Shown here piece after piece: positions 16,760-50,900 of a stretch of 64,000 nt of DNA. Position 1 is the first letter of the stretch; every line of letters begins with the position of its first letter. Both the position numbers and the translations under genes were made by a program. The notes below the pieces were generated by a model. The model saw nothing but the letters and a program-made list of their open reading frames with translations. It was not told the DNA's origin and made no database searches. The DNA is taken from NCBI GenBank assembly GCA_948146395.1, contig OX411557.1, positions 30,079,236-30,143,235 of the forward strand. Reading direction: 5' to 3'. This DNA is from Fragum whitleyi (lineage: Eukaryota; Mollusca; Bivalvia; Cardiida; Cardiidae).

Positions 16760-18402
16760 AAACAAGAGGACCATGATGGTCCTATATCGCTCACCTTCGT
16801 CTCTTTCGACTTCTCCCTTAGCAAAATTAAATACTTGAAAGATCATTAAATGATCATTAAATTTTTCAAAGAAAAACATAACTCTATTTCTATGATCGCT
16901 GCATAAATTTCTATCCTTTTCTCAACAAGTTTCACGTGACCTGGCCATCATTCTGACCAAGTTTCATAAAGATTGGGCAATATTTTTGACCTCTAAAAAG
17001 AAAAAAGTCATTAAGGCCCCTTTTCCCGTGATATGCCATGGATCTTTCCCATTCTAAATAGGGTTCATCCTTGTGACCTAGCCATTATTCTGGTCATGTT
17101 TCATGAAAATTGAATAGTATTTGTGGCTTCTAGAGCGTAAACAAGAAAATTGTCATTAAGGCCCCTTTCCCGTGATATGGCACAGATCTTTCCCATTTTC
17201 AATAGGGTTCATCTTTGTGACCTGGCCAACATTCTGAAGAAACTTCATAAAGATTGGGCCATATTTGTGGTCTCTAGAGTGTAAACAAAAAATTGTCATT
17301 ATGGCCCCTTTTCCCGTGATATGGCACAGATCCTTCCCATTTTCAATAGGGTTAATTCTTGTGGCTTGGCCAACCTTCTGACCAAATTTCATAAAGATTG
17401 GGCCATATTTGTGGCCTCTAGAGTGTAAACAAGAAGTTTGTCATTATGGCCCCTTTTCCCGTGATATGGCACGGATCCTTCCCATTTTCAATAGGGTTAA
17501 TCCTTGTGACCTTGCTAACATTCTGACCAAGTTTCATGAAGATTGGGCCATATTTGTGGCCTCTAGAGTGTAAACAAAAAAATTGTCATTAAGGCCCCTT
17601 TTCCCGTGATATGCCATGGATCTTTCCTATTTTCGATAGGGATCATCCTTGTGGCTTGGCCAACCTTCTGACCAAATTTCATAAAGATTGGGCCATATTT
17701 GTGGCCTCTAGAGTGTAAACAAGAAAATTGTCATTATAGCCCCTTTTCCCGTGATATGGCACAGATCCTTCCCATTTTCAATAGGGTTCATCCTTGTGAC
17801 CTGGCCAACCTTCTGACCAAATTTCATAAAGATTGGACCATATTTGTGGCCTCCAGAGTGTAAACAAGAAATTTGTCATTAAGGCCCCTTTTCCTGTGAT
17901 ATGGCATGGATCCTTCCCATTTTCGATATGGTTAATCCTTGTGACCTTGCTAACATTCTGACCAAGTTTCATGAAGATTGGGCCATATTTGTGGCCTCTA
18001 GAGTGTAAACAAAAAAATTGTTATTAAGGCCCCTTTTCCCGTGATATGGCACGGATCCTTCCTATTTTCGATAGGGATCATCCTTGTGGCTTGGCCAATC
18101 TTCTGACCAAATTTCATAAAGATTGGGCCATATTTGTGGCCTCTAGAGTGTAAACAAGAAAATTGTCATTATGGCCCCTTTTCCCGTGATATGGCACGGA
18201 TCCTTCCCATTTTCAATAGGGTTCATCCTTGTGACCTGGCCATCATTCTGACCAAGTTTCATGAAGATTGGTCCATATTTGTTGCCTCTAGAGTGTAAAC
18301 ACTAAGATTGTTGACGCCGGACGCCGGACGACAGATGACGCACGACGGACATTCAATGATCACAAAAGCTCACCTTGAGCACGATGTGCTCAGGTGAGCT
18401 AA
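16760..18402 (+). mobile_element. full-length pearl-like/HINE element
   Basis: The 5' head AACAAGAGGACCATGATGGT is followed by about eight to nine core units of ~145 bp (aagattgggccatatttgtg...), a GACGCCGGACGACAG microsatellite-like tract, then the 3' hairpin CTTGAGCACGATGTGCTCAG and terminal GTGAGCTAA. The layout is that of bivalve pearl elements; DINE-1/Helentron relatives share the 3' hairpin and lack target duplication. Confidence 0.8.
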
Positions 18403-19512
18403 TTATCATGAAAGCTCCTTTTTCCTGTGACATGACACAGATCCTTCCAATTTTCAAAGGATTATTCCTTGTGACTTGACAAACATTCAGACCAAGTTTC
18501 ATGAAGATTAGACCATATGTGTGGCCTCTTGAGCTTCAAGATGAAAAATGTCATTAAGGCCCCTTTTCCCGTGATATGATATGGATCCTTCCCATTTTTG
18601 ATAGGGTTCATCCTTGTGACCTTACAATCTTTCTGACCAAGTTTCATGAAGATTGGACCATATTTGTGGCCTCTAGAGCATAAACAAGAAATTTGTCATT
18701 AAGACCCCTTTTCCCTTGATATGACACAGATCCTTCCCATTTTCAATAGGGTTAATCCTTGTAAACTGACAGTCATTCTGGCCAAGTTTCATGATGATTT
18801 GTTCATATTTGTGGCCTCTAGAGCATAAACAAGAAAATTGTCATTAAGGCCCCTTTTCCTGTGATATGACACAGATCCTTCCCATTTTCAATAGGGTTCA
18901 TCCTTGCGACCTAACAATTACTCTGACCAAGTTTCATGAAGATTGGACCATATTTGTGGCTTCTAGAGTGTAAACAAGAAAATTGTCATTTAGGCCCCTT
19001 TTCCCTTGATATGGCACGGATCTTTCCCATTTTCGATAGGGTTAATCCTTAAGACCTGACAATCATTCTGGCCAAGTTTCATGATGATTGGTTCATATTT
19101 GTGGCCTCTAGAGCGTAAACAAGAAAATTGTCATTTAGGCCCCTTTTCCTGTGATATGAAACAGATCCTTCCCATTTTCAATAGGGTTCATCCTTGCGTC
19201 CTAACAATTACTCTGACCAAGTTTCATGAAGATTGGACCATATTTGTGGCTTCTAGAGTGTAAACAAGAAAATTGTCATTAAGGCCCCTTTTCCCTTGAT
19301 ATGGCATGGATCTTTCCCATTTTCAATAGGGTTCATCCTTGTGACCTGATGGTTAATCTGACCAAGTTTCATGATGATCGGTTCATATTTGTGGCCTCTA
19401 GAGTGTAAACACCTAAATTGTTGACGCCTGATGATGGACGACAGATGAGGCACGACACACATTCAATGATCACAAAAGCTCACCTTGAGCACGATGTGCT
19501 CAGGTGAGCTAA
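18403..19512 (+). mobile_element. pearl-like element lacking its 5' head
   Basis: It continues directly after the previous element with about seven more core units, a GACGATGGACGACAG-type tract and the same 3' hairpin and GCTAA end. It may be a tandem duplication of the core and 3' end rather than an independent insertion. Confidence 0.75.
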
Positions 19513-26730: not shown

Positions 26731-26927
26731 TCATGATAAATGGAATGAAAGCTGCCCCTCCTTAGCAGCAATGGCTAGTTTTTCACGCATCACTTCCACA
26801 CTCGAGTAATCGGGTAATTTGAGATAGTTCACGCACGTCATCACAGACGGGAGGTATGAGTCGGGATTTTCCGTTGGTTCAAATGTCTTTCGAACAATTG
26901 TTAAAGGTGGATTGAGACTTCTAAATC
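26731..26927 (-). CDS. TRIP12: TRIP12 terminal exon with catalytic cysteine
   Basis: It encodes [20 protein letters not shown] ... [20 protein letters not shown] ... QLSFHLS and then TGA. The Cys in MTCVNYL is the expected HECT catalytic residue, and the protein ends in SFHLS as in vertebrates. The acceptor is TTTCTTTCAG. Confidence 0.97.
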
Positions 26928-29900
26928 CTGAAAGAAATAAAACATCACCATTACAAGAGGTATAGATAAGAGAGGGTAAAGTAAGTCTTAAAATCTTTAT
27001 TCTATAATTTGGATCTAGGATTACTCATTAAAGATAATTATTTGTAAAACATTAATGCACTCTGAACAAGTCCCCCTTGACAAGTTAGGTTGCTCTTTTA
27101 ACTTAGAGATTAAGAGAGTAATTGTTGATTTCATTGAGGTATGAAACTAAAAATCGAATCACTGTATGAATATGTGAAGTGGATTCATACATTAGTGTGA
27201 TTAGGTTTTTAGTTTCATACCTCCATGAAATCAACAAATACTCTCTTCATATCTTATAATTTATATCATGAAGCAATAATGGAAGAATTTCTCCAAAATA
27301 AGACATATTTCTTTGGGGACTACTTTGCGTGCTAGCATAGAAAATAACTGTTTACTCAAAATTGTTTACATTGAGAAATAAAACCAACTTTTCAGCCAAT
27401 CAGAAAACTCAATTATTGATGGACACATTAAAATCAAATAATTCGCAAATATTCATTCAAAGAAATTTTCAAGAATATGCCTTCAGCATTTCAAAGTTTT
27501 AGGCAAATGTTTTCTTTACTACATTTACCAGAATTATTCGATTATATATGCCTAAGTCCATAAAAGGTCGAGGTCAAAACATCAAAGCAATTGCCTTCTT
27601 TTATGCACTTAAGTTGTTTTATATGAACTTGGAGCTTTTTCCTGGTTAAAGGTAAAGAAAGTATTAGATATATATTAACAATTTATGGCTCAACTTCAGG
27701 AAAAAATTAAAGACTGTTCTAAACAGTCTTCAATTCTTTTCTGAAGCTGATCCCCATAGGGCCTTAAGGACTCACATCAGATGGTTTTGAGGGTTCTGGC
27801 TACTCTCATATGATGGTCGCAAAACCTGCATCCCTTAAAACCCTATATTTGGAAAGGAATCTCACCTCCAACTGGCAGTTTTGGAGATCCAGTCACAAAC
27901 TGCAAGAACTCTCTCTGTTCATCAGGCGTGTAGGAGGACAAAACCTCGTAGAGAAACTTGATTGCACGACTATCATGGTTATACCCATGGTCAGGACGAC
28001 AACACTCCATCAATGTCTTAGTGTCCCAGATCTCCTCATTGTGGCCACAAAATAACTGCTCTAGCTGCACACATAAAAAAATCAAGGGGATAATTATTTG
28101 TTTCAGTCCTAGATCAATTTAATCTTTCATCTAGTAAAAAACAAAAGCTATATTTTCACAAGTGGCAAAGCCAGAAGTGAAAATATAGCTATTGTTTGTT
28201 CACCAAAATAAAGATTTACCTCATTTACGGTATTCTATTATAAAATGAGATAAAATGTGAAGATTTTTGGACAAATTTTCTGAAAGCAGGTCATTTTGCA
28301 TGTGTTTACTCTGTTCATCAGGACGACAATACTTTATCAATGTCTTAGTGTCCCAGATCTTCAAATTATTTCTACAAAATAAATGCTCGAGCTGCACATG
28401 GAAAATTAAAATTTTATAATTATGGAAAGTTTAGCTGGCCCCTACCCCTGACCTCTGTCAAGACACACCCCTCAAACATATAAAAGTGATCTATATGTAA
28501 AATATATGGAAATAGACATGTAACAAAGAGCAAATCAGTCAAGGGTAACCTTAACATTCAAGCTGTAGCAAATGGCAGTTTAAACAGTCATTCCTTATAA
28601 ATAAATGTTTGTATCGATCAATCATTTTTTCGATTGACAGCAGATATCTGATAATGGTCATAACATTGATCTCTTCTGAAAACTATAAAACTGCCATTGT
28701 CCCCCTAAAATACCATCCTGCTTTACCCAGAGAAACCTATCTGGTGTGTTCTTCAAACTTTGGGCCCTCCCTTGTGCTTCATTCTCCTGATTGCAGGGCT
28801 GCTCTCAAAGAATTAAGAAAAGCATCATTTATCAATCAGTAAATTATTTTTTATATAAACAGCAGTCATAAAAATGTATTCCATTTGTTTTTTTTTTTTT
28901 CTTACCTTAAAATAACTTTTAAAAGATCAATTTGAAATGCATGTAAATGATATCCTATTTCAGCTACGATGAGATACAAAAATTTATGCAAAATAATTTT
29001 CTGGGATAAGTTTGCGCACAAATTAACTGACAAACAAGGGTTAAGAAATACTTGTATCCAATACATTTTGTACTTGTTTAAAGATTGACCATTATCCTGA
29101 TAAATCTAAAATTTGTTTCAAACAAATTCCCTTTTTTTTTTTAAATTAATAAGAGTCTGGTTCAAGATTTCCCCACAGTAACTAAGCAGAAAGTGTAGGT
29201 TAAGATCAGACTGCACATTTGTACAGGCTGGTTTTAGACTATGCAGTCATCCAAAGCTTTGAGTACAACAGAAATATGTTGACAACAGTATTAAAATTGT
29301 TAAGTAACAAGCGATGTTTGTAAAATATTTATCCCCCCCATAAAAGCAGGTCAATAGCATATTCTTTGTCAATCAACAAAGGGGCAATAACTCACAAAAT
29401 ATGATGAGTAGAGTTATGGTTCTTGTGCACTGCACTTCTCCTCAATGAGATCTATCCACCTGTGAAGTTTTGTGATTCTAGCTTGCATACTTTAGAGATA
29501 TGCTCCCGAAAAAAGGTCTACAGTCGGACCAACCGACAAGTCCAGAGCAATATACCCCCTCTTCTTCAAAGGGGGGCATAATAATAGACAAGTACTCCAT
29601 TAACACAAATATTACCTCCTCCGGATAGAAACTCTGTAGGGACGTTAACGGAAACACAGCCTCAAATCCTTCTCTGAATGAATCAAACTGTCTGGATACA
29701 CCTTCTACCAAACTCCAGTGGGTCACCAACTGATGAAGATTATTGTAAGTTTAAAGATTTGAATGTTTATAAACAAACTGTAGTCATTGTGTGTCTGTAC
29801 AAAAAGTACTTGTTGCCATCTGATTTTTTATAACTAATTATTATATGCTGAATTTCTCACTATCAATTACTTTTTTATAAATTTTGATACATTGGATTGT

Positions 29901-32900
29901 ATGTTTATTGTACTATCACAGCATACAAACATAACAACGTAAAATCATCATTCATAGAGCCTAACCATTTCTAGATAAATATTTTCTAATGTCAGTTGAT
30001 ATGAAAATTTCATCTATATTCTTAACTATATTTATACGGATTTCAGTAGACATTTTCCTGATGAAAATTTGTGTGATTCTAATCAAGAGGACCACGATGG
30101 TCCTACATTGCTCATCTTAGTCTCTTTGATCCCTGGAACATCACATCAATTTAGTATGCAGATGTCATATGGGACAAAATTTCCACACAAAACCATGTTT
30201 CATGAAGTTTGGGCCAAAATAATGGCCTCTAGAGTTATAACAAGAAAATTATCATTAATACCCCCTTTTCCTGTAATATGGCATGGACCTTTCCCATTTT
30301 CAATAGGGTGACCTGACCAACATTCTGACCAAGTTTCACTAGAACTGTCGCAGAGAGGACTAATACCCCCCACATGCACTTTGTCAGAATGCAAGTAATA
30401 TTAGTGCAGGATGTGTTTGTAACAAATATTGAGGTCAAATGCAGCATTTGCATGAAGTTTCATGATTCTAGGTCGCTTGGTTTTTGAGTTAGAGTCCAGA
30501 AACGAAAATTGAACAAAAATTGACTGTGACCTTGACCTTTGACCTATATGACCCAAAAACAATAGGGCACTTTCTTGGATCATAAGCAACATTAGCATAG
30601 AGTTTCATGCTTGTAGGTCACTTGGTTCTTAAGTTAGAGTCCGGAATCTAAAATTGAACAAAGGCTGACTGTGACCTTGACCTTTGACCTATGTGACCCA
30701 AAAACGAAAGGGCACTTCCTTGGGTCATAAGGAACATTTGTATAAATTTTCATGATTGTAGGTCATTTGGTTCTTGAGTACGAGTCCGGAAACGAAAAGG
30801 TCTACGGACAGATGTATGGACGGATGAACAGAGAGACAGACATGGTGAAACCAATAAACCGCCCTCTAGGTGGGGGGTATAATAAAGATTGGGCCATATA
30901 TGTGGCCTCTAGAGTGTAAACAAGACAATTGTCAATTAGGCTCCATTTCCTGTGATATGGCATGGATCCTACCCATTTTCAATAGGGTTCATCCTTGTGA
31001 CTTGGCCAACATTTTGGCCAAGTTCCATGAAGATTGGGCAATATTTGTGGCCTCTAGAGTGTTAACAAGAAAATTGTCTATAAGGCTCCTTTTCCCATGA
31101 TATGGCATGGATCCTTCGCAATTTCAATAGGGTTCATCCTTGTGACCTGGCCAACATTCTGACCAAGTTTCATGAAGGATGGGCCAGATTTGTGGCCTCT
31201 AGAGTGTAAACACTTAAATTGTTGACGCCCGACAACATACAAAGGACATTCAATGATCACAAAAAATCACCTTGAGCACCATGTGCTCAGGTGAGCTAAC
31301 AAAAGGCTTTTGATGAGAAACAACTTGTGCTTTTGGCTTACTTGTAAATATTCCTCTAGATTCATGAGTGTGACTTGTTTATCTTTTCCGCCTTTCTTCA
31401 GTTCAATGCTGGGATAGCCTGGCAGTGTAAAGTCTAGGTCCATGTCTTCTATACTACAACCGTCAATAGTTAGATTGTCTAAGGCTAGTTGTCTGCTCTC
31501 TTCCGTCTAAAATGAAAATCAGAAGTTATATAGAAACTGTCATGAGATTTTTTTATTCAGCATGACAAGGGTTAAACACGCTTCTTACTCCTACCACCCA
31601 TGTAATACATTGTAAACTTTCATTTAGATGAAGTTATAAGAATATCATTTAGAAATTGGCCTACTTACATGTGATTTATCAGCTAATATTCTCTGTTTTT
31701 GTCTTAACACATCTTTGACAGGCCTACTTACATGTGATTTATCAGCTAATATTCTCTGTTTTTGTCTCTGCACATCTTTGACAGGCCTACTTACATGTGA
31801 TTTATCAGCTAATATTCTCTGTTTTTGTCTTAACATATCTTTGACAGGCCTACTTACATGTGATTTATCAGCTAATATTCTCTGTTTTTGTCTTAACATA
31901 TCTTTGACAGGCCTACTTACATGTGATTTATCAGCTAATATTCTCTGTTTTTGTCTCTGCACATCTTTGACAGGCCTACTTACATGTGATTTATCAGCTA
32001 ATATTCTCTGATTTTGTCTTTACACATCTTTGACAGGCCTACTTACATGTGATTTATCAGCTAATATTCTCTGTTTTAGTCTCAACACATCTTTGACAGG
32101 CCTACTTACATATGATTTATTAGCTAAGATTCTCTGTTTAAGTCTCAACACATCTTTGATAGGCCTACTTACATGTGATTTATCAGCTAATATTCTCTGT
32201 TTTTGTCTCAGCACATCTTCTAATTGAGCTATAGAGTTAGACATGACTCTGTCTACATGTTGTAGGTCACTGGATGTTAAACTGTGCTCCTGGCCCAATA
32301 ACCACTTGAAAAATATCAGACTGAATGGAATGTCCAACTGTGGAAAAATAAACAAGATTTAAAACTGTGATTATGTGTATCATGAAACATGTATGTCTCA
32401 AAAATAGCAAAATGCACCCATATTTATATCTTTAATTTCTTACTGGCTCTTAAACCATGAAAGTATCAACAGTGCAAAAAATAAAAACAAATGTGCCAAA
32501 TAATTTCAAATTATGTGTATAAATAACATTTAATCACTTTGTTTACAAATAATTGATCTTAAGCAATTTCAATTTCACTTTAGATTGAATCTGCAAAACC
32601 AAGAATATCATAAAGTTTTATTAAAATAAAGTTACAAGCATGAAGAACAAATTATGATCTCACATTAAAATAATGAATAAGCCAATATGCATAAAAATAA
32701 ACCAACACAAAAATGACACATTCAGAGTTTTGGACCTAAAAACAAATAATCTTATTATGTTTAAATACATTTCTTAATGGGCTTATGTCCAATTACAAAG
32801 AAATGGTAGACAACAATTTTTTTTAATATATTGTTATACATACCATCCTAGAGTCCATAAGGGCCTTTGCCATAAACTTTCCTAAAAACTTTGTCTTTGT

Positions 32901-35900: not shown

Positions 35901-38900
35901 CAAGATGGTCCTAGATCGCTCACCTGAGTCTCTATGACCCCTGGGACATCACATAATTAGATAGGCAGATGTCAAAAAGAAGATAATTGCCGAAGATCAA
36001 TACCATGGAACATTTTCAGCGAAGAGCAAGACAGATATGCCTTTTTGCTCTTTGATTCTATGTAAAAACGGATGCACCCGGGTGGACCCCAAAAGTGACC
36101 CCAGGGTCTTGATATGAACAAACTTGGAAGAGGTCCATAAGATGATGCAACATTCTAAATATGAAAGCTGTCTGCCTTCTGGTTTCAGAGAAGAAGATTT
36201 TTGAAGGTAAATTTCCCATTTTCACCCATCGTGCTCATATGAGCTGAAAGGGATGCACCCGGGTGGAGCCCAAATATGACCCAAGGGTCTTGATATGAGC
36301 AAACTTGGTAGGGGCCCACTAGGTGATGCTACATACCAAAAATGAAAGCAGTGTGCCCTCTGGTTTCAATTAAAGAAGATTTTAAAAGATTTTCACTCTT
36401 TGATTCTATGTAAAAAGGGTTGCGCCTGGGTGGAGCCCAAATATGTCCCCAGGGTCTTGATATGAACAAACTTGGTAGAGGTCCACTAGATGATGCTACA
36501 TACCAAATTTGAAAGTTGTCTGCCTTCTGGTTTCATAGAAGAAGATTTTTCAAGATTTTCATTTTTTTACCCTTCATGCTCATAAGAGATAAAGGGATGC
36601 ACCTGTGCAAAGCCCAAATATGACCCAAAGGTCTTGATATGAACAAACTTGGTAGAGGCCCACTAGGTGATGCTACACACCAAATATTAAAGCTGTCTGC
36701 CATCTGGATACAGAGAAGAAGATTTTTAAAGATTTTCGTTCTTTGATTCTATGTAAAAAGGGTTGCGCCCGGGTGGAGCCCAAATATGACCCCAGGGTCT
36801 TGATATGAACAAACTTGGTAGAGGTCCACTAGATGATGCTACTTACCAAATTTGAAAGTTGTCTGCCTTCTGGTTTCGAAGAAGAAGATTTTTGAAGATT
36901 TTCATTTTTTTACCCTTCATGCTCATAAGAGATAAAGGGATGCACCTGTGAAAAGCCCAAATATGACCCAAGGGTCTTGTTATGAACAAACTTGGTAGGG
37001 GCCCACTAGGTGATGCTACACACCAAATATTTAAGCTGTCTGCCATCTGGTTACAGAGAAGAAGATTTTAAAAGATATTCGCTCTTTGATTCTATGTAAA
37101 AAGGGTTGGGCCCGGGCAAAGCCCAAATATGACCCCAGGGTCTTGATATGAACAAACTTGGTAGAGGTCCACTAGACGATGCTACATACCAAATATGAAA
37201 GCAGTCTGCCTTCTGGTTTCAGAGAAGAAGATTTTTAAAGATTTTCATATTTTCACCTTTTTTGTTAAGGGTAAAGGGAAAGTTAAGGGTGGATTTCATT
37301 TATTTGAACAACTTTGGTAGAGCTTGACCGAAGGAACATCCCTGCCAAGTTTCATCAAGATTGGCCCACTAGTTTAGGAGGGGAAGATGTTTAAAGAAAT
37401 TGTAAACGACGGACGACGCACGACGGACGATGCACGACTGACGACGGACATTCTACGATCCCAATAGCTCACCTTGAGCACTTTGTGCTCAGGTGAGCTA
37501 AAAAAGGCCAGGTAAAATCATGGTTCTTGTACACTGCACTCCCCCTTGATGACATCTATACACCCATGAAGTTTCATGATCCTAGCTATTATACTTTAAC
37601 AGATATACTCCGGACAAGATTCAAGTCTGAAAAACAACAAAGGGCATTAACTAAAAAAATAGGCCAGGTAGAGTTATGGTTCTTGTGCACTGCACTCCCC
37701 CTTGGTGAGATCTATACACCCATGAAGTTTCATGATCCTAGCTATTATACTTTTAGAGATATACTCCGGACAAGATTCAAGTCTGAAAAACAACAAAGGG
37801 CAATAACTTAAACAAGAGGACCCTGAGGGTCCTAAATCGCTCACCTGATATTTCAAGTAAATTATCATTAAGACTCAATTTCCTATGATATGGCATGAAC
37901 CTTCCCATTTTCAACAGAGTTCATTCTTGTGACCTGGCAAACATTTTAATCAAAGTTTCATGAAGATTGGACTATATTTGTGGCGTTTGGAGCTCTTACG
38001 AGAAAATTGTCAATAAGGCCCCTTTTCCCATGATATGGCACACATACTTCCCATTTTCAAATGAGTTCATCCTCATGACCAACAAACATTCTGACAAAGT
38101 TTCATGATGATTGGACCATATTTGTGGCTTCTAGAGAGTAAACAAAAAAATTGTCATTAAGACGCCTTTTCCTGTGATATGGCACGGATCCTTCCCATTT
38201 TCAATAGACTTCATCCTCATGACCTAACAAACATTCTGACCAAGTTTCATGAAGATTGGACCATATTTGTGGCTTCTAGAGTGAAAACAAGAAATTTGTC
38301 ATTTAGGCCCCTTTTCCCGTGATATGGCACAGATTCTTTCCAATTGAGCAATTTTCATAAGGGACCACCCAAGGAATATTTCTGCCAAGTTTGGTTGATT
38401 TTGACCCATAAGTTTAGGAGGAGATGTTGTTTAAAGATATTGGTGACAAAATTGTCATTAAGGCGCCTTTTTCTGTGGAATGGCATGGATCCTTTCCATT
38501 TTCAATAGACTTCATCCTCATGACCTAACAAACATTCTGACCAAGTTTCATGAAGATTGGACCATATTTGTGGCTTCTAGAGTGAAAACAAGAAATTTGT
38601 CATTAAGGCCCCTTTTCCCGTGATATGGCACAGATTCTTTCCATTTGAGCAATTTTCATAAGGGACCACCCAAGGAATATTTCTGCCAAGTTTGGTTGAT
38701 TTTGACCCATAAGTTTAGGAGGAGATGTTGTTTAAAGATATTGTTGACAAAATTGTCATTAAGGTGCCTTTTTCTGTGAAATGGCACGGATCCTTCCCAT
38801 TTTCAATAGACTTCATCCTCATGACCTAACAAACATTCTGACCAAGTTTCATGAAGATTGGACCATATTTGTGGCTTCTAGAGTGAAAACAAGAAATTTG

Positions 38901-41900
38901 TCATTAAGGCCCCTTTTCCCGTGATATGGCATGGATCCTTTCCATTTGAGCAATTTTCATAAGGGACCACCCAAGGAATATTTCTGCCAAGTTTGGTTGA
39001 TTTTGACCCAAAAGTTTAGGAGGAGAAATCGTTTAAAGAAAAAGTTGACGCCGTGACGGACAGCATGGAAGAGCATTGTTTATGATCAGACTTGATAACA
39101 GAAACGATGATTTTTTTCAAACTTTGACCTTGACAGATGTCTTTGACCTTGTGACACCTGATCTTCAACTTGGTATCTGTAGATGCGCATCATTGAGATC
39201 TATCATCATACCTAATATGAGCCATTGAGTCTTGAATAGCCTAAAAGTAATTGGCAATGTTAAGTTTTCTGGTTAAGTTTTACAGACAGACAGACAGATG
39301 GCCAACAGACAGAGACAGACGGACAATTGTAAAACTATATGTACAAGATCTTTCCATGCGGGGGAATAAAAAGTTAGACAGTTAATACAGAATCACAGAT
39401 GAACTTCAAGAATCAAACATAGACTGGCCAGGCAAAGTGTTTACAATTTTAACAAATAATTGTGCAATGTGACAGCTAAGGGACTATCATTGAGTGCTGA
39501 TTTACATAACAAAACTCAATTCAATTAACCCCTCCCATGCTGTATACAACGTTCTTTCCAAACAAAAAGCCTTGGCAGACAATATAGACTAAGATCTACC
39601 TGCACAGACTTGCAGTGTGATCTTAGCCTACACTGCTTGCCTTCTAATTAATCATTGAAGAGAAAATACAAACCAAGATTTTAGAAATATCAAGAAATAT
39701 GGCAACTTGTTTGAAACATTTAAATTCAGCAGGATAAGGGTGAAGTTTTTACCTCATATACAGTGTACCAGTATCTGTTAAATGCATGAAGGATTCTAAG
39801 CAGGGATACAACGTCTAGTGAGGGGTCCTGGACAGATACAAATGCAGGCAGTTTATCTGTTAAATAGGCATTTAAAGCTGGTACTATCACAGGACAGCTT
39901 CCATCTGAAATGGACCCTACAATAATTGATTCTAACATATCTAATTTTAATTATTGCAACTTCTTTAATGCTTTTTGGTAGAATATCAAGAAATAACAGT
40001 ATATTATCATTTGATAAACTCACCATCTAAACAATGAAATTATCACAAACTTATACCCTGCTTTCCTTCATTTCACCTTATCTGACGTTATCTTAGCAGA
40101 GCCAATTAAGTGATGTCATCATAAAAGTTGCATAACAATCACATGAAAAATAATGAGAGTTAAGAAAATTTTCACATTTTGTCTCATTTTTGTTATAAAG
40201 AAAAAGAATAATTGATTAATTTTCTAGTAAGATTGATTGATATTTCATTTTGTGAACAACAAATGCTATATTTTCTCAAGTGTGAAAAAATACACCTTTT
40301 GTTGTTCACTCAATCAAATGTAAATCAATCTTACACTGAAATAAGCGATTATCTCCTATTTCTTGTATACCTATATATACTGTTCACAAAAAGTAGAGGA
40401 TATTTTAAGTTTGATTTGTGGTATTCTGGTCAGCTTGGGCACCTATACATCTTCAGGGCCCCGTTTTTTAATCATCAACAAAGAAGCCAATTGTATGATA
40501 CCATGACAATATCTGACTGTGAGACACAGGGTTTGACAGCAGTCTGGACTCACGTTCTTCTGGTTTCCAGCGTACCATTGACTCACTCACGGTGAGCTTT
40601 CATTAGACCCCACTTTATTCCAACAAAATGTGATGCAAATACATGATAGAAATAAACACCAAATAATTTTTTCGGAGTTATGCTCAACTAAAGTAAGAAT
40701 CCCATTACAACAAACGCCATGTTAAAATAAGCGCTATACCCCTCTCTTCTTAGATGCTGAATTTTTAGGACATGTTTAGCAGAAAAGGGAATTCCATAAC
40801 TACCATATTATCATGAGACAACTGCTGGTCGACCAAGAATAAGTTAGATTGTCCTAAATTTTTTGTAACCACAATAAGCTTATGGATTAACAGATTATCC
40901 CCTACTTTTTGTGAACGGTATATTTTGTTAGTGTGCATATTTCATAGGCATTTACAGAAGTTTTACACTACCCCCTAACCAATTTCCCTCATTTTTTCAA
41001 GCAGTGGGAACACTGCCCATAATAGTTCTGCAACATTTCTGTAGTAATGAACTTGAACAGTGTTAACCGAGGTTTCCTAATGATCTTCATTAGGAAACCT
41101 CGGTCAACAATGTGAAAGTAAATGAGTTCCTAAATGTTGCGGCACTATTCGATTCCACCACCTTTATTCAGTAATTTTCAAGTAATCTGTAAATCTACAG
41201 TCTGGACATAGACCAACAGAGCATTACCTGTCCACAATTCATCTGTTTTCTTTCTGCTAGATTTGATTGGTTTCGCCTCGGGCTTTGTTTTCTTGGGACT
41301 TGTAGCTATCACTTCATCATTGTCTGAGGCTGGTCTGTACCTGAATTAAAGTAATAGCAACTATTAATAATCTAAATAAAAATTTCAACTCTCCCTCAAA
41401 ATTTAGACTGGTCCATATAATATAGTGTTGTTTTGAACTGGGCTTAACATCATTCTAATATAATTTTAAGCAAATCTCAGCCGCTGGAGTACCTAACAAG
41501 GTGGCATTCTGGTATTTATAATATGACCGACATCGTAGGAGTGAAATAAACCGGTTTAATAATTTGATATTACACAGGTGTTACTAAACTAGTGTAATAA
41601 CTATGAAAACAAGAGCCATGTTGGACATGGGCATAAGTCCCCTACCGGCTTTGTTTGTCTCAATGTTTTCCCACGCCAATTCTATCAGGGACGTCAAAAC
41701 CAGGTCTTGTTAAAGGGTTAAACAAGACTTACATGAGTTGTTGTCTCTGCTGTGCCCACTATACAATTCATGGAAGCAATAGACAGATGCAAGAAATAGT
41801 ATCAATAACAGTTACCTTGTCTGATCCAAGATGTTTTTCTTCAGTCTTGTTGGTAAGAAATGAGAACTTTCACTGGAGGTGATTAATACTGCTGCATCAC

Positions 41901-47900: not shown

Positions 47901-50900
47901 AAGGATTGTTGTAGTGTAACATCGATTCATCTTTATAAATGAACAACAAAAGCTATATTTTCACAAGTGGCAAGCCACTCATGAAAATATAGCTTTAGTT
48001 GCTCAAGGCCACTGTGTATCACTTCAAACGGGGACACATCACTATCCTTCATTATCACAGATACTTCTTGTAACGCCTCCAAACCACAGTCATCCTGAAT
48101 AGACACAATATTGTGTTTGTTTTAGGATGGGATTGATCTTTGAGTGAACAACAAAAGTGATTGAAAAAATAGCATTTGTTGTTTGCCTCCAAACCAGTCA
48201 TCCTGAATATACAGGATATTGTGTTTGTTTTAGAATAGAATTGATTGGTCTTTGAGTGAACAACAAAAAAGATTGAAAATGTAGTGTTTGGTGTTCACCT
48301 CCAAACCAAAGTCATCCTGAATATACCCAATATAAAGAGGATTGTTGCAGTGCAAGATCGATTCATCTTTATAAATGAACAACAAAAGCTATATTTTCAC
48401 AAGTGACAAGGGACTCATGAAAATATAGCTTTCATTGTTCAAGAAATGAAAGATTTATCGATCTTGAAAGAAAACCAAACAAATATTCAATTACTTAAAT
48501 GCAAAAAGGGATGCAAAAAATTCACCTAGAAAATTTACCTAAAGCATGTCAGTTAGCAAGTGAATACTTTAAATGGGCTATGCTCAGATAATGTCAAATA
48601 GAGTGAACAAAAGCAGGTTACAATATCTTTGAAGGAGAGATTATCAAAGGATAGTCTGCTGTTATTTCTCGATAACACATCAAAGAGGATTGGTGTACCA
48701 TTGATAACTTCACCAACAAACTAGAGAAATATAATAATTGCTGACAGATTTAGCCAAGCTTTCTTTCACTGAGTGTCATAAAGCCAGGAAAAGGTTCTTG
48801 TAAAATCACCATGTTTGAAATAGTCTGAACTAAAGCATTTTTTTTCAGCGGAGGAAAACTTAGTGAAAATTCTTTGAATATGGCTAAATGCCATTTTTTT
48901 ATTACATCATTTCAATCATAGACTGGAGCATTTGACCATGAAATCTTTCTACTTCTCACACCAATTTCACCACTGCATCCCTCCAAACCTCCGTTGCTCT
49001 TCTCACTTGGGTTTATCATACAAACCATTAAGTGAGACAGACAAATGTCTGAGAGGAAATTTGTCAGAATCATGGAGCAAACCTGAGACCTCAAGATTCT
49101 GAGTCCCACATGATACCAACTGCCTTATAGCTCCAGCCTACTATGATAGAGTAACAAAAATGTCTTTATGGGTCTGGCATTAATCCCTAATCACATGCAA
49201 GTAATGACGCAGGGCTAGTACCTACCTCTAAAGTAAGATTGCCTATAGCATTACACAACCTGTTTAATGTGTTGAGAGCTGGATGGCTGTTAGACTGGCT
49301 CTCTGATGCAAAATATTGCTCTATAAATCTCGTAGCTGTGAAAGAAAACAAAGTCTGCATTCAGCAGCCAATCAAAATCAACCTTTTATGTCTTGAATTG
49401 ATAACAAAGTCTCTAATTGGGGTTAAGACTAATAATTTGCCAAATCAGAGACCTAGTTATAACATACTCAGAACAAGAAGTTAAGCGCCACCAGTTTTTA
49501 GACAGAAGATTTTTAAAAGCAGGGAGCCTGCATTAATTCAAAATTAATTCAAAATAACAGAGATGTAAATATTGAGTTCCAATGTTGAAAATGGTATGTT
49601 GACTTAACAATTTCACAACAATACATGGGTGGTAATTAATTTTATTGACTTTGTACCTTGAAATGTAAATGAAGTATTTTCACCTTTTTTAAAACATGAA
49701 ACACTATTGTCAAAGCCGACTAACGGTGTTGTCTATGACACGAAACTTGGTTTTAGAAGTCAGATAACACAAATGTGATTAATTCCGGTCACATCTTAGT
49801 CAGTAGCATCTTAGTCAGTAGCGTGTGTAAGATCTGTGAGCATTGATTACTGCGCGCACCCTCCTCGGCATGCCACGAATCAGCCTCTGGATGATGTGTT
49901 GAGGGAATTGCTGCCACTCCTGGTGCAGTGCTGCTTCTAACTCAACCACATTTTGTACAGGAGGCTCTCTCCGACGTATAAGGCGCCCTAAAATGTCCCA
50001 CAGGTGCTCGATGGGGTTAAGATCGGGACTACAAGCCAGCCATGGTGATGGCTTCACGTTGCATAACGTCTGCCACTCTTGCTCTGTGGGGTCTGGCGTT
50101 ATCATCCATGTACACTGGTCTTGTTCGAAGAGGGTGATTGTCAAAATGTGGAATTACCACAGAAAAAAGTATGTTATCGCAATATTTATCGCCAGTCAAT
50201 GTTCCTGGAACTGTAACTAGGTCCAGTTTACAGCCGTAGGAGACACAACCCCATATCATAACGGAGTCCACCGCCACCCTGATAGGTTGGTTGGACGTAC
50301 TTTGGTGCAAAACGGGTGTTAGGTTGTCTTCAAACACGAATTCGGCCATCGGTGACATGCAACAACATCCTACACTCATCTCACCAATGGATCCAACGCC
50401 ATGATGCCAAGTTCCAACGTGCTCTCGCTCTACACCATATAAGACGTTCATTGATGTGTCTCTGTTGTAACTTTGGACGTTTGAGGGGTCTTCGTGTATT
50501 ATACCCAGCCATCCGAAGTAGATTTCGCACTGTTGAAATAGAGACCCGTCTGTGTGTATTCCAGTTGTCCCTTAGTACAGGGGCACTGGTGAAGGGCAGA
50601 CGTCTGACGTGACGCAAAAGTGTTCTATCCTCTTGAATAGACGTTACTCTAGGGCGTCCAGATCTGACACAGTCCTTAACGTCATTTGTCTGTGCGTGTT
50701 TTTGTACCAAATGTGTTATGACACTGTGGTGATACCCCAGCTGCCTGGCAATGGCTCTACAAGACATTCCAGAATCTCGCATTCCAATTATGCGCCATCT
50801 TTCACTTGTAGACAATCTACGCCTTGCCATGACTGAGTTTCAAATCGAAATGTAAACAATTGCACGAGCTACATGACGTAAGTATCTCTGACAGAAAAGC

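Follow-up and report, generated by a model that had tools for sequence, protein, structure and literature searches.

The 3' edge of a HECT-domain exon of TRIP12 is present, together with its splice donor, in nine tandem, in-frame copies in the bivalve Fragum whitleyi. The first copy is the end of the exon itself and the remaining eight lie in the following intron. The array is found on the minus strand of the window, by which we mean the whole 64,000-nucleotide stretch of contig OX411557.1 that was analysed (positions 30,079,236 to 30,143,235). The structure is real, unusual and of a known kind, and it may have consequences for the choice of the donor. We hold with moderate confidence that it is a minisatellite derived from the exon edge and its donor, in which the first donor is ancestral and dominant and a minority of the splicing leaks to the later donors.

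TRF places the array at 31658-32219 of the minus strand (period 63, 8.9 copies, 94% matches, 0 indels, score 984), and a repeat search of the window returns nine copies with an exact 63-bp spacing, an arrangement far beyond chance. Each unit is made up of the last ~47 bases of the TRIP12 HECT exon at 32173-32337, a GTAAGT donor and a short linker. A tandem array that crosses an exon-intron boundary and carries a consensus donor in every unit is characteristic of minisatellites of the IFI6 type. The sequence-only reading had spoken of a TRIP12 unit repeated nine times; the nine 63-bp copies stand, but only eight of them are intronic, the other being the exon itself. A 26-base pattern of the repeat had 0 matches to viral contigs, a set that may lack entries from the genome to which the window belongs. 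The main features are the following.

32173..32337, minus strand: TRIP12 HECT exon (LDIPFS...ILADKSH) with a phase-0 3' end; gapless junction to the PDB TRIP12 chains and Mercenaria P0122; acceptor ...TTTTTCCACAG/TTG
32173..32219, minus strand: unit 1, the exonic repeat copy, 15 residues (TRF and unit alignment)
32167..32172, minus strand: donor 1 (CAT/GTAAGT, site 32172), presumably ancestral; its product matches relatives at the junction, and the frames of six relatives have DKSH-VS or DKSH-VG
32110..32172, minus strand: unit 2, 21 residues; donor 2 at 32109; +21 residues if used
32047..32109, minus strand: unit 3, 21 residues; donor 3 at 32046; +42 residues if used
31984..32046, minus strand: unit 4, 20 residues; donor 4 at 31983
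32020..32022, minus strand: in-frame TAA of unit 4
31669..31983, minus strand: units 5-9; donors 5-9 at 31920, 31857, 31794, 31731 and 31668
31507..31668, minus strand: intron as spliced from donor 9 (162 nt; 666 nt if spliced from donor 1), from the coordinates
31342..31506, minus strand: next TRIP12 HECT exon (TEESRQ...EEYLQ), acceptor TTTTAG/ACG (homology and acceptor)
26734..26931, minus strand: final HECT exon, carrying the C-terminal Cys motif, which would be missing from all donor 4-9 products (PDB and Mercenaria alignments)

All nine donors read GTAAGTAGGCC; they are preceded by AAATCACAT in eight cases and by AAATCATAT at donor 2. The distal units had been described as almost identical, and indeed unit 5 equals unit 8, unit 6 equals unit 7 and unit 9 differs from units 6 and 7 by one base. 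The most divergent intronic unit is unit 2, which adjoins the exon. The presence of an unchanged GTAAGTAGGCC in 9/9 units was not counted as evidence of selection on the donors, since there are few differences among the units, most of them confined to a small number of positions.

The host gene was characterized by homology. Joining the frames from 33435 to 26734 yields a HECT product of 390 aa. Along its entire length it matches the TRIP12 chains 9gkm and 9ken (PDB), with 605 bits against 237 for the next protein, Ufd4, and it also matches the Pfam HECT family (PF00632) at 2.6e-83. The full HECT domain can be aligned to TRIP12, including the C-terminal Cys motif. We take the cysteine of this motif, encoded by the last HECT exon (26734..26931), to be the catalytic one. 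Along the window, the matches to the Mercenaria protein P0122 extend from ~60.7 kb down to 26.7 kb. The two exons that adjoin the array are 86% identical to Mercenaria and 75-86% identical over 12 relatives, seven named bivalves among them, and they align to all 12 with no gaps. No protein resembling the animal's own is present among the matches listed in three protein searches, in which the top identities are 70%, 63% (insert counted) and, for one third of the query, 82%. Judging from these homologies, the host is a bivalve-like TRIP12, and its designation as a TRIP12 HECT gene, which had been made from the letters alone, is borne out by the PDB chains, the Pfam domain and the Mercenaria alignment.

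Splicing from any of the donors preserves the reading frame, since the 63-bp period is divisible by three and the exon has a phase-0 end. The period amounts to 21 codons and, as expected of IFI6-type minisatellites, unit 1 lies within the coding exon while the further units follow in frame. Donors 1, 2 and 3 leave the frame open and lengthen it by 0, 63 and 126 nt, or 0, 21 and 42 residues; the earlier claim that donors 2 and 3 add exactly 21 and 42 residues agrees with units 2 and 3 being open and in frame. Donors 4-9, on the other hand, all take in the TAA at 32020-32022 of unit 4, which lies 36 to 351 nt upstream of the exon junction depending on the donor. Since several exons follow, NMD would be expected for these products. 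Their proteins would be devoid of the remaining HECT domain and of the Cys motif, in line with the truncated ligase that the sequence-only reading had anticipated from the later donors, the C-terminal part of HECT being lost. The 124-aa frame of the array has Pfam matches (GP70, Pico_P1A and L_PA-C-like) that are read as products of repetition: the whole-protein score of GP70 is 29.5 for a cut-off of 27, Pico_P1A and L_PA-C-like are below the cut-off, and no stretch passes alone.

The ancestral state can be approached through the relatives. Splicing from donor 1 rebuilds the junction found in Pinctada and others and leaves no gap with respect to the PDB TRIP12 chains. Among the 236 rows that span the junction (77 of the 313 aligned rows were left out for not spanning it), 234 have 0 residues at the exact junction and two (P0063 and P0079) have three unrelated ones; eight Eleutherodactylus coqui entries with nine extra residues and P0257 with eleven, located one to five positions earlier, are counted as having none at the exact junction, and an insert-bearing isoform could hide inside a row because the rows are 90%-identity clusters. 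The peptides SRPVKD, SRPIKD, DKSHVSR, NKSYVSR, VSRPV and VSRPI occur in 0 of the 309 different proteins fetched among the matches listed (the best 120 of 2076, the best 120 of 259 and 81 of 81), and VSRP is found once in this set, in P0010, far from the junction. Six short proteins (P0234, P0235, P0237, P0238, P0240 and P0241) have DKSH-VS or DKSH-VG at the exon end and then 13-28 residues in all, unlike the repeat. They are taken as genomic frames running into the intron of the relatives, and they represent at most five independent read-through cases, since P0238 and P0240 are near-duplicates. The sequence-only reading had proposed looking for the array in related species; none is present in these six reading frames running past the exon end. 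As the relatives share the junction, the 309 proteins lack the repeat peptide and the six relatives' frames lack the array, donor 1 is probably ancestral and the array probably young. The simplest reading of these comparisons is that the array is limited to this lineage and young.

With regard to its origin, a tandem duplication of the exon 3' edge and its donor could have started the minisatellite, and slippage or unequal exchange could then have brought it to nine copies. The identities between units 5 and 8 and between units 6 and 7, together with the divergent unit 2, fit repeated local expansion. The origin of the array looks ordinary because three other exon edges of TRIP12 are locally duplicated, one on the donor side and two on the acceptor side, which brings the exons with a duplicated edge to four of the 21 examined. 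On the donor side, 44895-44811 is copied at 44685-44599 (86% identical, with two one-base insertions near the end of the copy). On the acceptor side, 28071-27991 is copied at 28398-28318 (85% identical), and an acceptor with the first part of its exon (47870-47689) is copied upstream at 48194-48004, shorter further copies also being present. The last ~100 aligned bases of this last pair, mostly exon, are identical and the intron parts differ, a pattern that suggests a recent duplication or gene conversion. Exon-edge duplication seems ordinary in this gene, the 63-bp array being the one that still grew afterwards. A single allele is seen, and the identical pairs 5/8 and 6/7 do no more than hint that the copy number, which had been proposed to be polymorphic, may vary among individuals.

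The computed figures for U1 pairing, exposure and folding single out no donor. Twenty donor-bearing exons were examined and 17 donors were scored for U1, among which the boundary of e44.9 is uncertain; the exposure comparison relies on 15 donors besides the array, with e44.9 left out, and e57.2, e49.3 and e47.8 belong to neither set because their boundary is unsettled. Donor 1 agrees with eight of nine donor-consensus positions, the highest value of the 17 gene donors scored, and 11 of the 16 others have a stronger U1 pairing than donor 1 (-5.0 kcal/mol). The local exposure (P unpaired) of the nine donors goes from 0.017 to 0.099 and rises toward donor 9 (0.018 for donor 1, 0.099 for donor 9). 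The 15 other gene donors have a median exposure of 0.011 (range 0.0001-0.197), and all nine array donors are above this median; in a modelled one-donor intron the exposure is 0.151. The array RNA folds better than its shuffles (z -4.0, 0/20, from 20 shuffles only). RNA structure was rejected as a donor selector, as the exposure of the array donors is inside the range of the 15 other gene donors.

Published systems provide further pointers. In a tandem-donor library, the first donor was reported to be predominantly used when both are at consensus (PMC6783452); the work dealt with donor pairs, 2-77 nt apart in their native contexts, in human K562 cells, whereas the TRIP12 array has nine donors and belongs to a bivalve. 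In intron 4 of DOK7, the intron-proximal donor is reportedly preferred with the aid of SRSF1 (PMC5585400). An 8-bp duplication of a donor in OCT1 is described as causing 38-52% alternative splicing in minigenes; in liver, the alternative transcript that could be detected amounted to 0.3-0.6%, and the duplication was accompanied by a lower expression, accounting for 9% of the expression variability (PMC8137991). Weighed together, these reports lead us to expect donor-1 dominance with some leakage, and the OCT1 minigene values imply that the leakage could be large. Donor 1 would then be the source of most functional mRNA, since the first-transcribed of equally strong donors tends to be favored. 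A minority leakage to donors 2 and 3 would produce HECT domains longer by 21 and 42 residues, with the extra segment in an inter-helix loop, and a minority leakage to donors 4-9 would lead to a stop after 105 residues of the exon's frame and probably to NMD. Nevertheless, donor 9 is the nearest to the acceptor and the most exposed, and the U1 pairing of donor 1 (-5.0) is weaker than that of most of the other donors scored, all of which argues against the dominance of donor 1.

Several other scenarios may be considered. One of them is that donors 1-3 are all appreciably used and that the array generates three HECT lengths (+0, +21 and +42) with a functional consequence, as in human IFI6, where two downstream repeat units are reported to serve as donors and to yield three mRNA species (PMC4526556). 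The open frame of units 2 and 3 speaks for such a generator, and the position of the junction is also favorable: in a model of the relative P0003 (22-row alignment, mean pLDDT 66, pTM 0.61, pLDDT ~87 in the two blocks around the site) it falls between residues 430 and 431, in a 5-residue loop flanked by the helices 405-426 and 432-440. Moreover, the TRIP12 of E. coqui varies at the same junction (32173/31506 in the window), where the nine residues VTISPGAIQ are present in eight and absent from ten of the 18 entries among the matches listed, entries (P0162-P0188) that come from two annotation sets. Given the loop position and the variation in E. coqui, the +21 and +42 products are plausibly workable. 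Yet protein selection on the repeat peptide is unsupported. Of the codon differences between units 2-9 and their own consensus, ten change the amino acid, four are silent and one creates a stop, to be compared with 138, 39 and 12 possible single changes of each kind and bearing in mind that the units are not independent. These changes are close to the unconstrained expectation and do not point to any maintenance of the added peptide. The preference for first donors in the reported library (PMC6783452) and the absence of the insert from the 309 homologues fetched among the matches listed also speak against three lengths in appreciable use, a scenario that we can entertain only tentatively.

It seems rather unlikely that both kinds of products make up a donor ladder of this essential E3 ligase, in which donors 1-3 would give graded HECT lengths and donors 4-9 a poison product, their ratio would be set by the number of copies or by where the stop lies, and alleles would differ heritably in both the dosage and the form of TRIP12. 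Also unlikely is a splicing brake in which the intron-proximal donors 4-9 would take a substantial share, their products would undergo NMD, and TRIP12 dosage would drop with copy number. Such a brake could draw on the TAA being taken in by six of the nine donors, on donor 9 being the most exposed of the nine and on the folding of the array relative to shuffles (z -4.0), and it would be congruent with the SRSF1-linked preference reported for an intron-proximal donor (PMC5585400) and with the lower liver expression associated with the OCT1 8-bp donor duplication (PMC8137991). Nevertheless, the first-donor rule reported for donors of equal strength (PMC6783452) speaks against it, and RNA structure leaves the array donors no less exposed than is usual in the gene (0.017-0.099, each exceeding the median of 0.011). 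In addition, Trip12 inactivation in mouse is reported to be embryonic lethal (PMC7697007), and a strong brake on such a gene should be selected against.

Finally, a silent intronic minisatellite with donor 1 alone in use, or an assembly artefact with a wrong copy number, is very improbable: tandem repeats are abundant in the window (50 TRF rows) and neutral expansion would suffice, but all nine donors keep GTAAGT, so that the complete silence of donors 2-9 needs an active reason, and the distinguishing differences in several units speak against a simple assembly duplication, an argument that does not extend to the identical pairs 5/8 and 6/7.

By analogy, the preferred reading, a minisatellite with a dominant ancestral donor, would have the array work like that of human IFI6 (6-16, G1P3), whose minisatellite was reportedly described by Turri, Cuin and Porter in 1995 (NAR 23:1854) as having multiple splice donors. 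The likeness lies in tandem units that supply splice donors in IFI6 and could supply them in TRIP12. A TRIP12 unit spans 63 bp, including 15 codons taken from a conserved exon of the catalytic domain, compared with 12 bp for a unit of IFI6. What is special here is the long unit taken from a catalytic-domain exon and the unit-4 stop, which separates productive from unproductive donors. The polyubiquitin gene UBC and VCX3A also have tandem repeats with a splice site per unit, and stochastic splicing of UBC is reported to result in variable unit numbers (PMC10809524). Their AGGT sites are described as acting both as donors and acceptors, hence introns that are multiples of the unit (PMC10809524), whereas the TRIP12 array has CAT/GTAAGT or TAT/GTAAGT and only its donors are multiplied. 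Dual-specific or recursive splicing of the UBC type was rejected on these grounds, as there is no AG/GT at the donors (8/9 CAT/GT and 1/9 TAT/GT). The exon 7 donor of OCT1 (SLC22A1, rs35854239) is likewise a coding-gene donor duplicated in tandem, with an alternative product described as truncated, but it has one extra 8-bp copy instead of eight extra in-frame 63-bp copies (PMC8137991). GYNGYN tandem donors resemble the array in that adjacent donors compete and give rise to subtle protein variants, but they are reported as a six-base motif with two donors and not as a 63-bp repeat (PMC1779574). Regional duplication is also the source of splice sites in the reported gain of introns by tandem duplication of coding sequence with proto-splice sites; there, however, a new intron position is created, whereas an existing TRIP12 intron gains donors (PMC2891723). 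No TRIP12 donor array was found in the literature searched.

Nine near-identical donors with a fixed 63-nt spacing and a single acceptor amount to a ready-made test of how the spliceosome chooses among equal donors, for which a first come-first served rule would favor one end of the ladder and an intron-proximal preference the other. The stop of unit 4 makes the choice of the donor a readout of TRIP12 dosage, and an animal whose alleles carried different copy numbers would be its own internal control. The array also illustrates how the duplication of an exon edge can present a conserved enzyme with in-frame variants of different length.

Other repeated and mobile sequences were observed in the window. 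Tandem arrays of ~145 bp, alike by eye, are present at 16936-18301, 18401-19411, 30885-31212 and 37854-39039, among others, and other repeat families of ~156 and ~343 bp are spread throughout. Inside a TRIP12 intron, the minus strand carries frames at 49818-50839 that resemble a Tc1/mariner-type transposase.
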